A stretch of 35,772 nt of DNA from Vampirovibrio sp. (GTDB lineage: Bacteria > Cyanobacteriota > Vampirovibrionia > Vampirovibrionales > Vampirovibrionaceae), in assembly GCA_019634025.1 (NCBI GenBank), contig JAHQWC010000062.1, positions 1 to 35,772 of the forward strand, given 5' to 3'. The notes beneath the pieces are model-generated. The model was not told the DNA's origin. It was given only the letters and a program-made list of their open reading frames with translations, and searched no databases. The position numbers and the translations under genes are program-made. Below, one piece after another: positions 8,595 to 14,634 of this stretch (its first letter is position 1; every line of letters begins with the position of its first letter).

Positions 8595-8909
8595 ATGAAC
8601 TACAAACAAATGGTGCCTGCAGTAGCCGTAACATTGGGTCTTTCTGCCGGCTTGGCCGCCCAATCCATGGCCAACCCTCTTACCACCGATGGGTTGAACC
8701 TGTTCCAAATGAACGAAGTATCCAACCAGGGTGCTTTGTTGGCCGAAGGCGACCATAAATGTGGTAAAGGCGCCTGCGGTGGTGAGCACGACGAAGATGA
8801 TAAAGGCGAGCACAAGTGTGGTAAAGACCATTGTGGTGATGACAAAGACCATGGCGACAGTGACCACAAGTGTGGTAAAGACTCTTGCGGTGGTGACAAA
8901 GACCACTAA
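8595..8909 (+). CDS. bufA: Bufferin/HvfA-like metal-binding RiPP precursor
   Basis: This is a predicted exported peptide substrate of the adjacent MNIO enzyme. From ATG 8595 it has 104 residues; AAGGAG at 8581-8586 is eight bases upstream, so ATG is preferred to GTG 8592. Residues 1-26 are a classical signal peptide (MNYKQMVPAVAVTLGLSAGL, then AAQSMA, cleavage after Ala). A short leader-like segment (NPLTTDGLNLFQMNEVSNQG) follows. The rest is Asp/His/Gly/Lys-rich with three copies of HKCGK-x-x-CG, giving six cysteines as three C-x4-C pairs. HvfA proteins use EGKCG repeats whose cysteines are converted to copper-binding oxazolone/thioamide groups, and bufferins carry modified cysteines that bind copper. 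The same chemistry is inferred here. The first residues of the motif differ (D/E-HKCG instead of EGKCG). Confidence 0.85.
   Translation: MNYKQMVPAVAVTLGLSAGLAAQSMANPLTTDGLNLFQMNEVSNQGALLAEGDHKCGKGACGGEHDEDDKGEHKCGKDHCGDDKDHGDSDHKCGKDSCGGDKDH
8751..8909 (+). repeat. Three in-frame tandem repeats encoding HKCGK-x-x-CG units
   Basis: Copies begin at 8751, 8808 and 8862 (period 57 then 54 bases, 19 and 18 codons). Copies two and three share CACAAGTGTGGTAAAGAC exactly (8811-8828 and 8865-8882). The repeats stay in frame and form the modified core of the precursor, so they are coding repeats and not a CRISPR array. Confidence 0.85.
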
Positions 8910-8924
8910 TTCTTAAAGGCTTGG

Positions 8925-8963
8925 TGCGGAGGCCATTTTAAATGGCCTCCGCATGCCTTTTTT
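8925..8963 (+). terminator. Strong intrinsic terminator between bufA and bufB
   Basis: TGCGGAGGCCATT (8925-8937) pairs with AATGGCCTCCGCA (8941-8953) in a 13-base stem with a three-base loop, followed by TGCC and six T (8958-8963). It lies 15 bases after the precursor stop and 54 bases before the maturase start. This suggests that most transcripts stop after bufA and only read-through reaches bufBC. Confidence 0.85.
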
Positions 8964-9016
8964 AATCCCTTTTTGATAGTATCTTTATCTAAAGCTCCCG
9001 TTATTCGAGGTATTGC

Positions 9017-9931
9017 GTGATCCAGTCTTCAGAGAAAAAAAAGAGAACAGGATTTCAAGAATGTCCGGTCTTGGGCGTAGGCCTGGGACTCCGTCGTCCC
9101 TTGGTAGACGAAACATTAACGTCGACAGATCTATTAGATTGGGTAGAAGTAACGCCGGAAAACTATATGGGCAAAGGGGGGCGGAGTCAGGAAATTTTGG
9201 CTCAAGCGAAAGAAGTTTATCCTTTGGTTTCACATGGCGTGAGTCTATCCATCGGTAGTGTGGATCCTTGGGATTCAGAGTACCTGCGTCAGTTTCGCGA
9301 GTTTCTCGATGTGGCCCAATCTCCCTGGTTTAGTGACCATCTGTGTTTTAGCGGCGTTGATGGTGTCTATTTCCACGATTTAATTCCTCTGCCCAGAACC
9401 AAAGAAACCGTTGCCCACTGCGCTGCCCGAATTCGGGAATTACGGGATCGGTTGGAAAAACCAGTGTTGGTAGAAAATGTCTCGTATTATCTGCGGTATC
9501 CGGAAGATGAACTGTCTGAGGCAGACTTTGTGGCAGAAGTCATTGAGCAGGCCGATTGTGGGCTGCTGTTGGATGTAAATAACGTGTATGTGAACACCCA
9601 AAACCACGGTGGAGATCCATATGCCTATTTCTCCAGAATCCCTTTGGAGCGAGTGGTTCAGATTCATACCGCCGGACACCACAAATATCCTGAAGGGTTA
9701 GTAGACACCCACGGCAGCGAGGTGTGTGAAGACGTCTGGACCTTGCTTGCATGGGTGCTGGAGCGCAGCCGGCCTTGTGGGGTGATGATTGAACGCGATA
9801 CGTATATCCCTGCCTTTGAGGAGCTGAAGCCTGAGATTCAACGGCTTCGGCAGCTATGGGAGGCTACGCAGGGAACTACCTTGAGGGAGTCTGAGAAGCC
9901 ATTAGCAGATCAGCAGGAGGCGTTGGTATGA
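9017..9931 (+). CDS. bufB: DUF692/MNIO multinuclear iron oxidative enzyme (RiPP maturase)
   Basis: This MNIO enzyme is predicted to modify cysteines of the BufA-like precursor in the cytoplasm before export. The 304-residue TIM-barrel protein has the family signatures in order: WVEVTPENYMGKGG (42-55), SHGVSLSIGS (72-81; His73), FSDHLCFSG (105-113; Asp107, His108), HDLIPLPRTKE, VLVENVSYYL (150-159; Glu153), GLLLDVNNVYVNTQNHG (182-198; Asp186), QIHTAGHHK (215-223; His217, His221), DTHG (230-233) and MIERD (257-261). These His, Glu and Asp residues are the expected iron ligands, so the enzyme looks active. The start is GTG 9017, with CGAGG six bases upstream. It overlaps the next gene by four bases (ATGA). 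The substrate assignment rests on gene order. Confidence 0.92.
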   Translation: MIQSSEKKKRTGFQECPVLGVGLGLRRPLVDETLTSTDLLDWVEVTPENYMGKGGRSQEILAQAKEVYPLVSHGVSLSIGSVDPWDSEYLRQFREFLDVAQSPWFSDHLCFSGVDGVYFHDLIPLPRTKETVAHCAARIRELRDRLEKPVLVENVSYYLRYPEDELSEADFVAEVIEQADCGLLLDVNNVYVNTQNHGGDPYAYFSRIPLERVVQIHTAGHHKYPEGLVDTHGSEVCEDVWTLLAWVLERSRPCGVMIERDTYIPAFEELKPEIQRLRQLWEATQGTTLRESEKPLADQQEALV

Positions 9932-10845
9932 GCCCTGCAATGACTTTAGCCGAACGTCAAAAAGCTATGGGAACTGCTCTTCTACAGGCAAAAGGCCATT
10001 TGGTATTGGATACGGAGGATGCCTGGCAACAGTTTGCTGTAAAAGAGGCTGATGCGACTTTTGCTTTTGAAGGACTGGATCGTAAGAAACTGTTGCTATA
10101 CGAGAGCTTGATTCGTGGCAGTATGAAGGAAACCCTGCTCAGTATTTACCCTCACACCCTGAAATTTTTTGAAGGAAACCAATCCGGTCTCACGGAGAAC
10201 TATCGGCGGTCTAACCCCAGCAGTTCTTTCAAACTCTCATATGCCACATCTGCGTTGCCCGAATATCTTCGAGGGTTAACTGTAGATAAGCCGAAAAGCT
10301 TGTACAAGCCGTTATTTTTAGAGCTGTTAAAGCAATATCCGTTTCTACCAGAACTGGCTGAGTATGAGTGGCAAGAAGCAGCTGTTGCGCTAATGCCGGA
10401 TCAGGCTATTCCTGAGGAATTTGAGCCCGGGATTCCGGATACTGTAGATGAAATGAGTCGGTGGCAGCCTGTCTGGAATCTGGTGCGGCAAATCAACACG
10501 TTTCATTACAATATTCCGGGTTTGGTTGAGCAAGTTAGCGAAATGGAATCCGTCTTGAAGTCCTCGTGGGATATGCCGCCAGTACCCTGCCAGATGCTCT
10601 TTTACCGAGACCCCAAAACCTTTAAAGTTCGGTTTTTCCAATTGAATGATCTCACCGCTGCATTTTTAACCGCCGGCGAATATGCCGGGAGTTATCAAGA
10701 AATTGTGGAAACCCTTCACCGTGAACAACCCAGTCTACGGGCAATTCCCGTGGAAGCATTGATGGGTGAAGTGTTAAAACTTTTACAGATGTGTTTCTCT
10801 CAGCAAATCCTGCTGGGATCGGTACCGGTCATGCCTGAGAGTTAG
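9928..10845 (+). CDS. bufC: DUF2063 partner protein (BufC/HvfC-like)
   Basis: This 305-residue soluble protein is the usual partner of MNIO enzymes. In Hvf and bufferin systems the C protein binds the precursor leader and presents it to the B enzyme. Visible family features are an N-terminal helical domain (about 10-110; FEGLDRKKLLLYESLIRGS and LLSIYPHTLKFF), the segment KSLYKPLFLELLKQYPFLPE followed by LAEYEWQEAAV (about 130-155), and a mixed C-terminal domain with LFYRDPKTFKVRFFQLND and a terminal winged-helix-like stretch. It starts inside the bufB stop (ATGA overlap), which implies translational coupling and a complex. The YceI gene follows after 51 bases. Sequence identity to characterised HvfC cannot be measured here; the call rests on motif style plus position. 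Confidence 0.85.
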   Translation: MSPAMTLAERQKAMGTALLQAKGHLVLDTEDAWQQFAVKEADATFAFEGLDRKKLLLYESLIRGSMKETLLSIYPHTLKFFEGNQSGLTENYRRSNPSSSFKLSYATSALPEYLRGLTVDKPKSLYKPLFLELLKQYPFLPELAEYEWQEAAVALMPDQAIPEEFEPGIPDTVDEMSRWQPVWNLVRQINTFHYNIPGLVEQVSEMESVLKSSWDMPPVPCQMLFYRDPKTFKVRFFQLNDLTAAFLTAGEYAGSYQEIVETLHREQPSLRAIPVEALMGEVLKLLQMCFSQQILLGSVPVMPES

Positions 10846-10896: not shown

Positions 10897-11565
10897 ATGA
10901 GTTTCTGGAAAAAAGCAACGATAACAGCTGTGTTAACGGCTATGGCAATTCCGCTTCAGGCAATCCCTGGCTGGGCAGAGCAAAATACATTTTATGTTGG
11001 CGACCCTTCTAAGCGTGATGTGGTTTCCTTTGACAGTGACGCCCCGGTAGAGCTGATTAAAGGCACCACCAATAAAATCAAGGGCCACGTGACCTACGAC
11101 AAGGAATTTAAGTTTGACACCAAACACCCCTTTGAAATTGTGTTTGATGTGGATCTGGCCAGCATTGACACCGGTATTCCTCTCCGGAACCAGCATATGC
11201 GGGATAACTTTTTACAAACGGCTAAATACCCCAAGGCCGTCTTTAAGGCCAGACAGATCAAAACCCGTTCCAAGCACCCCATGAAGTCTGGTCAGGTGGT
11301 GAAACTGACGGCCATTGGCGATTTAACCATCCACGGCAAGACCGTTCCCAAAACTATTCCGCTGACAGTAACGTATTTTCCAGAGTCGGCCATCACCAAA
11401 AAGCGGTTCAAGTCCGGCAATATGATCCGGATTCGCGCCAATTTTCCAGTAAAACTGGCTCAGCACAACATCCAGCGTCCCGAAGCCCTCTTTGTGAAGC
11501 TGGCTGAAGAGGTCATCATCAAAGTAGATGCCTTTGCCACCGATGACAAAACGGCGCTGAAGTAA
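10897..11565 (+). CDS. YceI family periplasmic lipocalin-like protein
   Basis: This is a 222-residue exported protein with a signal peptide of about 27 residues (MSFWKKATITAVLTAMAI, ending PGWA) and a YceI beta-barrel domain. The domain shows VVSFDSDAPVELIKGTTNKI, FEIVFDVDLASIDTGIPLRNQHMRDNFL, YPKAVFKA, DLTIHGKTV and a closing IIIKVDAF strand. The family forms a hydrophobic cavity and binds isoprenoid or other amphiphilic ligands; physiological roles vary. An excellent ribosome site (GGAGG, 9-10 bases upstream) supports ATG 10897. It is 51 bases behind bufC and ends at a strong terminator, so it may be the last gene of the RiPP transcription unit. A role in metal or oxidative stress alongside the bufferin-like peptide is plausible but not shown. 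Confidence 0.92.
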   Translation: MSFWKKATITAVLTAMAIPLQAIPGWAEQNTFYVGDPSKRDVVSFDSDAPVELIKGTTNKIKGHVTYDKEFKFDTKHPFEIVFDVDLASIDTGIPLRNQHMRDNFLQTAKYPKAVFKARQIKTRSKHPMKSGQVVKLTAIGDLTIHGKTVPKTIPLTVTYFPESAITKKRFKSGNMIRIRANFPVKLAQHNIQRPEALFVKLAEEVIIKVDAFATDDKTALK

Positions 11566-11670: not shown

Positions 11671-14634
11671 TTAAATCGCCGTCAACGTCTCAAACCGGTG
11701 GGATTCTTCAGCCACATGGATCCGGCGGCTAATTTCTTCCACATCGTTAAGACTCAAATTCAGGAAATACACCAACAGCAATGCTGGCTTGCCATCGGCA
11801 GGCGGTTGAATGTCCTGTATCTCTCCCTCTAGGTCCATCGAATCCTGTTTATCCCAATAGAGCTTCAAGCTAACAGTCATCCCCCGGCGCAGTGGGATAT
11901 TTTCCTGCAGGCTGATCACAGCGCCCATCTCACTCATTTCCCAGGTATAGCCTCGGATGAGCTTACCAGGCTGCCCAGTAGCATCCCGATTGTCGACAAC
12001 GGACAGAACACAGTTCACGGTTTTTTGAATCCCCGGTGCCACCCGAACCAAGCCTTCTCTGGGCCGATACATCTGCTGGATAATATGTAGCTGCTGCTGC
12101 TTGGTTAATTCTAAAAACTCGAGTCCTAGTTTGTATTGATCCGCATCGATTTTCTTCAGGTATTTCACCTCAGACGGCAATTCAGTGACATTCCCGTTGC
12201 TCCATTGAATCCGTGCAGTGACTTTGGTCCCTAGATCAATCGATTTTTTCAGGTAAACAGCAATACCGGTTTCACTCACATCATCCGAAAATCCAATCAA
12301 CGGGTCTTGCCCGTTGCCCGTATCAACCACACAAGACAGGTTGGTTCTAAACCGCAACACTCTACGCCGGGTGGTTTCCTCTTTGGTGAACAGCACCCGG
12401 AACGGGGTCGTCAGCATATGCAGAAAAGAGGAAAACGTACTGGTCCGCTGATTTTCCTGCATCCAGATCCCTGGCGTGCCAAACATATGGCAAATCAGCT
12501 TTTGATGCTGCTTATCGGTTCGATCAATCACGTTAAACCCAACATAATGGCGGTTATCCTGATCAATGGTGCTCCGGATGGGCTGCACTTTAAGCATAGT
12601 AGACTCATTAATATCCCAATCCAACAGCTTCACGCTGGCCACACCACTCACAGGCACAGGCTCTTCAAAGACCATGGCCACACCACTCTCGCTGATATTG
12701 GTCGTATAGCCGATGGCGACGGTACCATCCTGAAGATGCAACTCGCTCCTGATTTCTTTGAAAATCCGCGGCATCATCCGATATTGGGGACGCTCTTGGG
12801 CTACGTAGATGCCACCCAAAAGCAACACCAGGTTGTAGCAAGCCCAAAACATATTGATAAACACACCCGGTTTGTAATCCGGGGTTTCCAGCAAGCGCCA
12901 GACACCGAACGCCAGGCTCATCAGAATTAACAGGGTTAAAAATACCTGAGGTAAAACCACCCGCAAATCAAACCGCATCTTCTGCATCACCCCACCCTTA
13001 GGGGTCACCCGAAACTTGGCTCGACCCTTGGTAAACAGGGATGAAAACACCGTGGTGAAATTTGTGAAAAACATCTCGGTACACATCGCCGTATCATAGA
13101 CTTCACCCCAGAAGTTTTGCCGCAACCCGCGGGTCACAATGGGATAACCCCACACCAAAAACACAAAGCTTGGCAGGTAGTAGACCAAGACTTCTACATA
13201 CCCGGCATTAATCGTGGTCACCCCAAACAGTAAAAAGGCAATGGGGGCTGCCAAAAAGATCATCCGGGCCAACCCACTAAAGAAGTACCAGATGCCGGAG
13301 AAATAGCACAGGCGTTGCCCAAACGTCAGACCAGATTTCAGCAAGGGGTGATCAAAAAACAGAATCTGGGTCATCCCCTTGGTCCACCGCAACCGCTGCT
13401 TAATAAAGTCGGCAAAGGTATCTTGGGCTAGGCCGGCCGCCAAATCCTTATTGTAATAAATAGACTTCCACCCTTTAGCGTGAAGCCTCAGACCGGTGTG
13501 GACATCTTCTGTGATGGTCTCAGTGGCGAATCCATCGATCTCCTCTAGGGCCTTGCGCCGGAAAATCGCGCCGCTACCCGCAAAGAAGGCAGCATCCCAA
13601 GCATCATTGCCGGGTTGAATAACGTGGAAGAACAGATCTTGCTCGTTATTCATTTCGGTGGCCAACAGGTTCCGTTGGAAGGGATCCTGGGTGAAAAAAT
13701 GCTGAGGCGTTTGAACATACGCCAGGTTGTCATTGATAAAGAAGCCGACAACTTCCTTTAAAAAGCTTTTGCACGGCACATGGTCAGCATCAAAGATCAA
13801 AGACAGATCACCGGAGGTTTGCTCCAGTGCATTATTTAAATTCCCTGCCTTGGCATGGGTATTTTTCTCGCGGCCAATGTATTGGATTTTCAGCTTCTTT
13901 GCCAGCTCCGCCATCTCAGATCGGTTGCCGTCATCCAGCAAGTAGACTGTTTTGTTCTCATAGTCTATGTTTTTACAGCCCACCAGAGTCCGATACAGGA
14001 CACTTAAGGGCTCGTTATAGGTGCACACAAACACGTCCACAGACGGCCTATCCTCTCCTTTAGGAAAAGATTTATCTAACGGCACTGCCTCGCGATCTGT
14101 TTGATTCCACATCTGGAGAAAGCCTAATAACAGAGAGGCTGCCGCCAGAATTTCGGCCCCATAAACAATCCAAGCCACCACAGTGGAAGAAGGCGCCACC
14201 GTGTCCATGGTTTCAAACCCCCGCCACAGCAAATGACGCAAGATCACCACAAACGTCAATCCCATCACCACTTTACGATGCCGAGGCATCCATTTGGCAA
14301 TCAGCAAAAAGACAAGCACCAACACCCCGGAAATAATGGCTTGAGTAAACCAAGAGGTCCCAAACAGCGAGTCTTCAGGCAAGAGTTCTCTCGTCATACT
14401 GCCATAATAGAGACTGGCCAGATCAGAAATAGATTGCTGAGTTTGCTGCAAAAAGCCGCCACTGCCAGGATCGGCAAAAGCAGTTACCTCAGCACTCAAA
14501 AGAATCAAATTTACCAAGACAAACGCAACAGAGAACAAAACACCAATACGGCCCAAGAGCTGGACGCCGTTTAACCGGTTCACAGTTCGATAAACAGAAG
14601 TATCAACGATTTGCTTGAGGCGATTCCATATCAT
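11671..14634 (-). CDS. bcsA: BcsA-like processive glycosyltransferase with three PilZ-like domains
   Basis: This inner-membrane GT2 synthase resembles BcsA, which makes and extrudes beta-1,4-glucan when c-di-GMP binds its PilZ domain. The 987 residues exceed the usual size. N-terminal membrane helices (about 28-48, 98-112, 121-137, 151-172) precede the GT domain, which has VFVCTYNEP, LLDDGNRSE (DDG 234-236), FDADHVP (DxD 282-284), TED (375-377) and QRLRW (413-417); more helices follow (about 446-500, 558-612). The tail has PilZ-like domain 1 (about 614-720; RPQYR, NISESG), domain 2 (about 756-855; RRVLR, DVSETG) and a degenerate domain 3 (about 862-975; EMSEMG). Catalytic residues are intact. 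bcsB, bcsC and bcsZ are absent nearby, so the polymer may not be cellulose. The start is ATG 14634 with a weak ribosome site. TTGAGG-N17-TATACC about 65-105 bases upstream could be the promoter. Confidence 0.9.
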   Translation of the reverse strand: MIWNRLKQIVDTSVYRTVNRLNGVQLLGRIGVLFSVAFVLVNLILLSAEVTAFADPGSGGFLQQTQQSISDLASLYYGSMTRELLPEDSLFGTSWFTQAIISGVLVLVFLLIAKWMPRHRKVVMGLTFVVILRHLLWRGFETMDTVAPSSTVVAWIVYGAEILAAASLLLGFLQMWNQTDREAVPLDKSFPKGEDRPSVDVFVCTYNEPLSVLYRTLVGCKNIDYENKTVYLLDDGNRSEMAELAKKLKIQYIGREKNTHAKAGNLNNALEQTSGDLSLIFDADHVPCKSFLKEVVGFFINDNLAYVQTPQHFFTQDPFQRNLLATEMNNEQDLFFHVIQPGNDAWDAAFFAGSGAIFRRKALEEIDGFATETITEDVHTGLRLHAKGWKSIYYNKDLAAGLAQDTFADFIKQRLRWTKGMTQILFFDHPLLKSGLTFGQRLCYFSGIWYFFSGLARMIFLAAPIAFLLFGVTTINAGYVEVLVYYLPSFVFLVWGYPIVTRGLRQNFWGEVYDTAMCTEMFFTNFTTVFSSLFTKGRAKFRVTPKGGVMQKMRFDLRVVLPQVFLTLLILMSLAFGVWRLLETPDYKPGVFINMFWACYNLVLLLGGIYVAQERPQYRMMPRIFKEIRSELHLQDGTVAIGYTTNISESGVAMVFEEPVPVSGVASVKLLDWDINESTMLKVQPIRSTIDQDNRHYVGFNVIDRTDKQHQKLICHMFGTPGIWMQENQRTSTFSSFLHMLTTPFRVLFTKEETTRRRVLRFRTNLSCVVDTGNGQDPLIGFSDDVSETGIAVYLKKSIDLGTKVTARIQWSNGNVTELPSEVKYLKKIDADQYKLGLEFLELTKQQQLHIIQQMYRPREGLVRVAPGIQKTVNCVLSVVDNRDATGQPGKLIRGYTWEMSEMGAVISLQENIPLRRGMTVSLKLYWDKQDSMDLEGEIQDIQPPADGKPALLLVYFLNLSLNDVEEISRRIHVAEESHRFETLTAI

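Follow-up and report, generated by a model that had tools for sequence, protein, structure and literature searches.

A probable lineage-specific HvfA-type captophorin locus in a Vampirovibrio genome

The window, by which we mean the whole stretch of 35,772 nucleotides of Vampirovibrio sp. DNA that was analysed, contains a three-gene locus for an exported Cys-rich precursor (A), an MNIO enzyme (B) and a partner protein (C). The initial annotation had placed this locus at positions 8595-10845, and every part of it was found there. The operon-like unit reaches further than that annotation had noted, to a YceI gene that follows C after a gap of 51 bp. The features are as follows.

8595-8909, plus strand: precursor A, ATG at 8595, stop ending at 8909, 104 amino acids
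8595-8672, plus strand: putative Sec signal peptide of A, residues 1-26, ending in AQSMA, judged by eye
8673-8750, plus strand: leader of A with LFQMNEVSNQGALLAEG, from profile score and shuffles
8751-8780, plus strand: core unit 1, DHKCG-KGACG
8808-8837, plus strand: core unit 2, EHKCG-KDHCG
8862-8891, plus strand: core unit 3, DHKCG-KDSCG
8924-8964, plus strand: terminator-like hairpin between A and B, 14-bp stem and T run
9017-9931, plus strand: MNIO maturase B (DUF692), GTG start
9928-10845, plus strand: partner C (PME-type 1, DUF2063 plus RRE-like domain), ATG start
10897-11565, plus strand: YceI-family exported protein (PF04264, 1.3e-22)

An RBS-like aaaggag precedes the start of precursor A, and an ATGA overlap joins the stop of B to the start of C. 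We read precursor A as a genuine gene and not a chance open reading frame, because orthologues lie directly upstream of the MNIO gene in related genomes, including that of Vampirovibrio chlorellavorus. The gene order with its ATGA overlap had been taken as that of an HvfABC/bufferin-type cluster, and domain and profile matches of the three proteins bear this out. An Obg GTPase gene lies upstream of the locus. A cellulose-synthase-like glycosyltransferase of 987 residues with three PilZ-matching stretches is encoded on the minus strand at 11671-14634, convergent to the YceI gene. The A-B-C-YceI core unit has no linked copper gene, and one Cu-ATPase was located on another contig; DoxX is absent from the locus contig and present elsewhere in the genome.

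The window genome, an assembly rated 79% complete, has a single MNIO. Its family is that of V. chlorellavorus NCIMB 11383, in keeping with the Vampirovibrionia-like lineage that had been suspected. MNIO genes were found in eight of the nine other family genomes sampled and in many further Vampirovibrionia genomes, so the proposed extension of the system to this lineage was right, with a wider reach than had been proposed.

The N-terminus of precursor A has, on inspection, a basic start, a hydrophobic stretch and small residues at its end; a cut before NPLTT would leave a mature form with an average mass of about 8235.7 Da. Its six Cys (residues 56, 61, 75, 80, 93 and 98) lie in three units that begin at residues 53, 72 and 90, and at the DNA level a 49-nt stretch occurs three times, at spacings of 57 and 54 nt and with 71-78% identity to the first copy. 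The three [D/E]HKCGKxxCG units with paired Cys (C-x4-C) are thus present as described. The pairing had been held to distinguish them from the EGKCG repeat, but EGKCGEGKCG is spaced identically. Because neighbouring Cys of EGKCG arrays show the same C-x4-C spacing, HKCGKxxCG reads as two tandem pentamers, DHKCG and KxxCG. HvfA of Haemophilus influenzae contains three AEGKCGEGKCG motifs with six Cys (PMC13419390), and precursor A has this same plan of three Cys pairs. Literal EGKCG pentamers are absent from it, and the six pentamers are DHKCG, KGACG, EHKCG, KDHCG, DHKCG and KDSCG.

Peptides of the same class bridge the two repeat types, for example EDHKCGEDHKCGEGKCG. The peptide at locus L051 mixes DHKCG and EGKCG (EDHKCGESKCGESKCGEDHKCGEDHKCGEGKCGE), and bridging peptides L221 and L215 read EDHKCGEDHKCGEGKCGDDHKCGEDHKCGEGKCGE and EHKCGADHKCGEGKCG, respectively. 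Those of L051 and L221 pass the HvfA-family repeat model KCGExKCG_twice (NF050137; 27.3 and 29.5 bits, cut-off 19.5), which precursor A approaches with 14.9 bits. The core is a diverged array of EGKCG pentamers, and not a departure from that repeat as had been claimed. The likeness of precursor A to HvfA holds as a match to model NF050188 (E=1.3e-6) and fails as membership, with 28.9 bits against a cut-off of 95; a gammaproteobacterial EGKCG peptide likewise falls below this cut-off (50.7 of 95 bits). No DUF2282 or BufA2 match was found in precursor A with Pfam and NCBIfam, and a Buf2-type control peptide matched BufA2. The pentamers DHKCG and EHKCG, and SCKGKEG (see below), were not found in the papers searched; supplementary motif tables of survey papers may list them.

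The added His noted earlier in the core is a real enrichment: the cores of nine Vampirovibrionaceae peptides contain 4-22% His, against 0-2% in those of eight gammaproteobacterial peptides. A KCG/HKCA-type peptide also lies beside an MNIO gene in a Bdellovibrio-labelled MAG (L094), so a His ahead of KC may have more than one origin.

The leader segment LFQMNEVSNQGALLAEG resembles the gammaproteobacterial NPFxMTELSSGYMVAEG type. An HMM of nine gammaproteobacterial leaders alone, with 17 columns and too short, gave no significant hit to the window precursor, and the same alignment was therefore put to a shuffle test. The window leader scores 14.9 against the profile of these nine HvfA-type leaders, and 3 of 500 shuffles score as high. 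The same test gave 0/500 for L032, 2/500 each for the distant L044 and L051, and 23/500 for an Acinetobacter peptide with a different leader (L088). We assign precursor A an HvfA-type leader from this sequence comparison, and the segment is probably the recognition site for B and C.

MNIO B matches PF05114 (MbnB_TglH_ChrH) at 9.7e-100 and PDB entry 3bww at 2.3e-55; HvfB, a close relative of 3bww, makes 5-thiooxazoles (PMC13419390). The top NCBIfam models are BufB (307.8 bits, cut-off 310) and HvfB (289.3 bits, cut-off 360), and since both scores are short of their cut-offs, B earns no equivalog name. The match to MbnB is weak (35.3 of 325 bits), which places B outside the MbnB-type enzymes of methanobactin. 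HvfB residues N175, D242 and H244 of metal site 3 are essential (PMC13419390), and the corresponding Asn, Asp and His motifs are kept in B as LDVNN and DTHG. Also present is the ERD aspartate, the counterpart of the FonB catalytic base. We note that HvfB and FonB residue numbers were assigned by motif and not by alignment to these two proteins themselves. On this numbering, the Arg-Arg pair at FonB-Arg15/Arg16 is kept as Arg26-Arg27, and Phe250 is replaced by Thr262.

The residue at the Phe250 position follows the enzyme groups, with the caveat that rows within one group are kin and not independent events. It is Phe in 13 of 13 gammaproteobacterial EGKCG-clade enzymes and Asp in 11 of 13 Buf2-type ones, in agreement with the residue logos in PMC13097082. 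Gln occupies it in all 22 members of the SCKGKE-associated Obscuribacterales-like group, and Thr, Leu or Gly in all nine of the window clade. KCG enzymes from elsewhere in the Vampirovibrionia vary at this position (Phe 5, Thr 2, Gln 1, Ser 1). Repeat type and this residue may have shifted together within the class, HKCG with Thr, Leu or Gly and SCKGKE with Gln, an idea that we hold with considerable doubt.

The MNIO tree (131 rows) places the window enzyme in a nine-row clade with an SH-aLRT of 97. Clustering with enzymes of unrelated precursor classes, which would have spoken against the initial annotation, was not seen: eight of the nine rows adjoin HKCG-type precursors, as typed by script. 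The ninth, L038, has GGKCAGDSCSG and GSKCAGGSCSG in its precursor. Automatic typing left 63 of the 131 rows untyped, and the repeat type of the Obscuribacterales peptides therefore rests on reading the peptides themselves. Deep branches of the tree are weak (SH-aLRT 58), so we make no claim on transfer to or from Pseudomonadota.

In the order Obscuribacterales, SCKGKEG-type repeats, in which Cys precedes Lys, adjoin the MNIO gene (L039-L043, L045 and L057-L070). The associated MNIO enzymes, about 50% identical to that of the window, carry Gln at the Phe250 position; the repeat type has switched inside a single class. Three of these loci (L060, L062 and L063) also encode a second small exported peptide upstream of the SCKGKE precursor, with one CGKGSCG or CGKGACG motif, which is a possible second substrate. 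In an Obscuribacterales genome (L071:346-2628), MNIO and partner form one 760-residue frame, a natural counterpart to the engineered HvfBC fusion unless the assembly is in error there.

Partner C matches the HvfC model at 8.2e-15, below its cut-off, and scores under the Pfam cut-offs in the window; the DUF2063 cut-off was passed by all six orthologues scanned. A phmmer search of C against PDB sequences returned no match, and a fold search was therefore run. The AlphaFold2 model of C, from a 25-sequence alignment, has a mean pLDDT of 89.7, and its best Foldseek matches are 3dee (NGO1945, 1.1e-6) and TglI (8hi7, 1.7e-6). Together with 8hci, the other TglHI entry, these are the only PDB matches at E < 0.001. 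The predicted fold identifies C as a diverged PME-type 1 partner with the DUF2063 plus RRE architecture.

In seven of the nine MNIO-bearing Vampirovibrionaceae genomes, counting that of the window, and at ten Obscuribacterales loci, the YceI gene directly follows C. The proteins encoded after C are 45-63% identical to that of the window; other YceI proteins of the class are ~31-39% identical over part of their length. YceI-like domains bind polyisoprenoids, and one structure contains ubiquinone-8 (PMC8981238). No paper that ties YceI to MNIO loci was found in the literature. One genome of the genus Vampirovibrio (G006, L206) keeps the MNIO-associated YceI type and has no MNIO match, by loss or an assembly gap.

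The intergenic region between A and B has a minimum free energy of -37.1 kcal/mol. Terminator-like sites are no more frequent than in shuffles (3 found, 3.6 expected), and the stem of the A-B hairpin is by far the longest. L049 and L051 have comparable hairpins, and L032-L035 have none. The hairpin is a possible attenuator that raises A over B and C.

These observations make it likely that the window holds a lineage-specific form of the HvfA (EGKCG, captophorin) system, whose peptide would bind copper, probably in the cell envelope. In support of this HvfA-type reading are the domain matches, the 3bww match, the fold of C, the catalytic motifs, the six-Cys plan, the mixed DHKCG/EGKCG peptides, the leader match and the well-supported MNIO clade. 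Counted against it are the scores of precursor A below the cut-offs of both HvfA models, the change of Phe250 to Thr, the lack of a linked copper gene, the Lys at position 1 of the second pentamers and the leader-only HMM. The A-B-C-YceI unit is best described as working like an HvfABC system, outside the HvfA and HvfB equivalogs, for which membership was tested. By analogy, we infer 5-thiooxazole chemistry, copper binding and export for the window peptide. Precursor A would be made in the cytosol, where its leader would dock on partner C. The C-bound di-iron B would then oxidise the Cys of both pentamers, [D/E]HKCG and KxxCG, to 5-thiooxazoles, with loss of 4 H each, and Sec would export the peptide to buffer Cu in the cell envelope. 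More speculatively, His side chains would serve as extra ligands, the hairpin after A may hold the peptide in excess over B and C, and YceI, which may carry quinone or another isoprenoid, would work alongside the peptide in the envelope.

Three rather than six Cys may be modified. This is a live alternative because Lys opens every second pentamer of the window precursor at position 1, where Arg stopped FonBC: a substrate in which both position-1 residues were Arg went unprocessed, and FonB-R15A relieved the block (PMC13097082). The counterparts of FonB-Arg15 and Arg16 are kept in B, and position 3 of the second pentamers is Ala, His or Ser. If oxidation were limited to the first Cys in each pair (HKCG) and that of KxxCG remained a free thiol, the result would be a mixed thiooxazole/thiol/His site with a ligand set unlike that of oxazolin. 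However, in both pentamers the residue after Cys is still Gly, FonBC tolerates Ala at position 3, and Thr262 may make the enzyme more permissive, an effect that F250D had for one substrate. We consider oxidation of the first Cys only to be possible, at rather less than even chances. A fuller proposal seems more doubtful, namely that the Vampirovibrionaceae captophorin is a mixed-donor peptide (thiooxazole from HKCG, thiol from KxxCG, and His) made by an MNIO with reshaped contacts, with YceI coupling copper to envelope quinones.

The His content of the family cores, above the gammaproteobacterial values, and the mere four Cys of the V. chlorellavorus precursor would also suit a chiefly His/Asp-rich zinc or nickel buffer, with Cys chemistry secondary, or lost in some parts of the lineage. 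This is unlikely, as nearly all relatives in the family keep MNIO and partner beside the peptide, and KC[G/A]xGxCG units persist. It is less likely still that an altered pocket makes B install a chemistry other than 5-thiooxazole. Thr, Leu or Gly at the Phe250 position and the many reactions known across the MNIO family (PMC13419390) leave some room for this, but every characterised MNIO-PME1 pair yields 5-thiooxazole, and so did FonB F250A and F250D (PMC13097082). Methanobactin-like copper acquisition in place of copper protection shares the MNIO chemistry but is likewise improbable given the weak MbnB match, the conserved A-B-C-YceI unit without a transporter gene, and near HvfA/bufferin kin tied to copper excess (PMC13097082 and PMC12452194).

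Many of the genomes sampled from the sister group of cyanobacteria that lacks photosynthesis, among them that of V. chlorellavorus, a predator of algae, carry HvfA/bufferin-type RiPP loci, and the literature found does not describe such a system in this lineage. Neither the group nor V. chlorellavorus is named in the main text of the survey PMC12452194. The class offers a natural experiment on MNIO specificity, with kin enzymes that serve HKCG or SCKGKE and differ at the residue of the FonB mutagenesis. YceI is pointed out here as a conserved candidate accessory gene of MNIO loci.

Several known systems can be compared with the window locus. Melainabacteria SJ512 of the same wider lineage also has an MNIO-made RiPP, MelA/MelH, but its ChrH-type enzyme belongs to another MNIO subfamily and its motif is CPACGMG (PMC12636315). 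The CxxxxC precursor family shares the C-x4-C spacing and a signal peptide; in PMC12452194 it is reported from Pseudomonadati, often with Lactamase_B_2, and the spacing is not diagnostic of that family because it is common to EGKCG arrays. Bufferins Buf1 (DUF2282) and Buf2 share the MNIO and partner families, and B falls just short of BufB, but the window precursor matches neither DUF2282 nor BufA2; Buf2 enzymes, unlike B, mostly have Asp at the Phe250 position and have lost the second Arg. Fontiphorin (FonABC) and bulbicupramide (MmrABC) are EGKCG-type captophorins, and the Mmr core has also been read as three two-Cys cassettes (PMC12538549); they differ from the window locus in repeat residues and in the MNIO contact residue. 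The closest likeness is to HvfABC of H. influenzae, which makes the EGKCG captophorin oxazolin and shares the A-B-C order, an exported six-Cys precursor with three C-x4-C paired motifs, a PME-type 1 partner, the conserved MNIO ligands and a resembling leader. Where HvfABC has EGKCG+EGKCG and a linked DoxX, the window locus has DHKCG+KxxCG and YceI; its core contains His, its MNIO carries Thr at the Phe250 position, and its host comes from a non-photosynthetic cyanobacterial lineage, not from Pseudomonadota.
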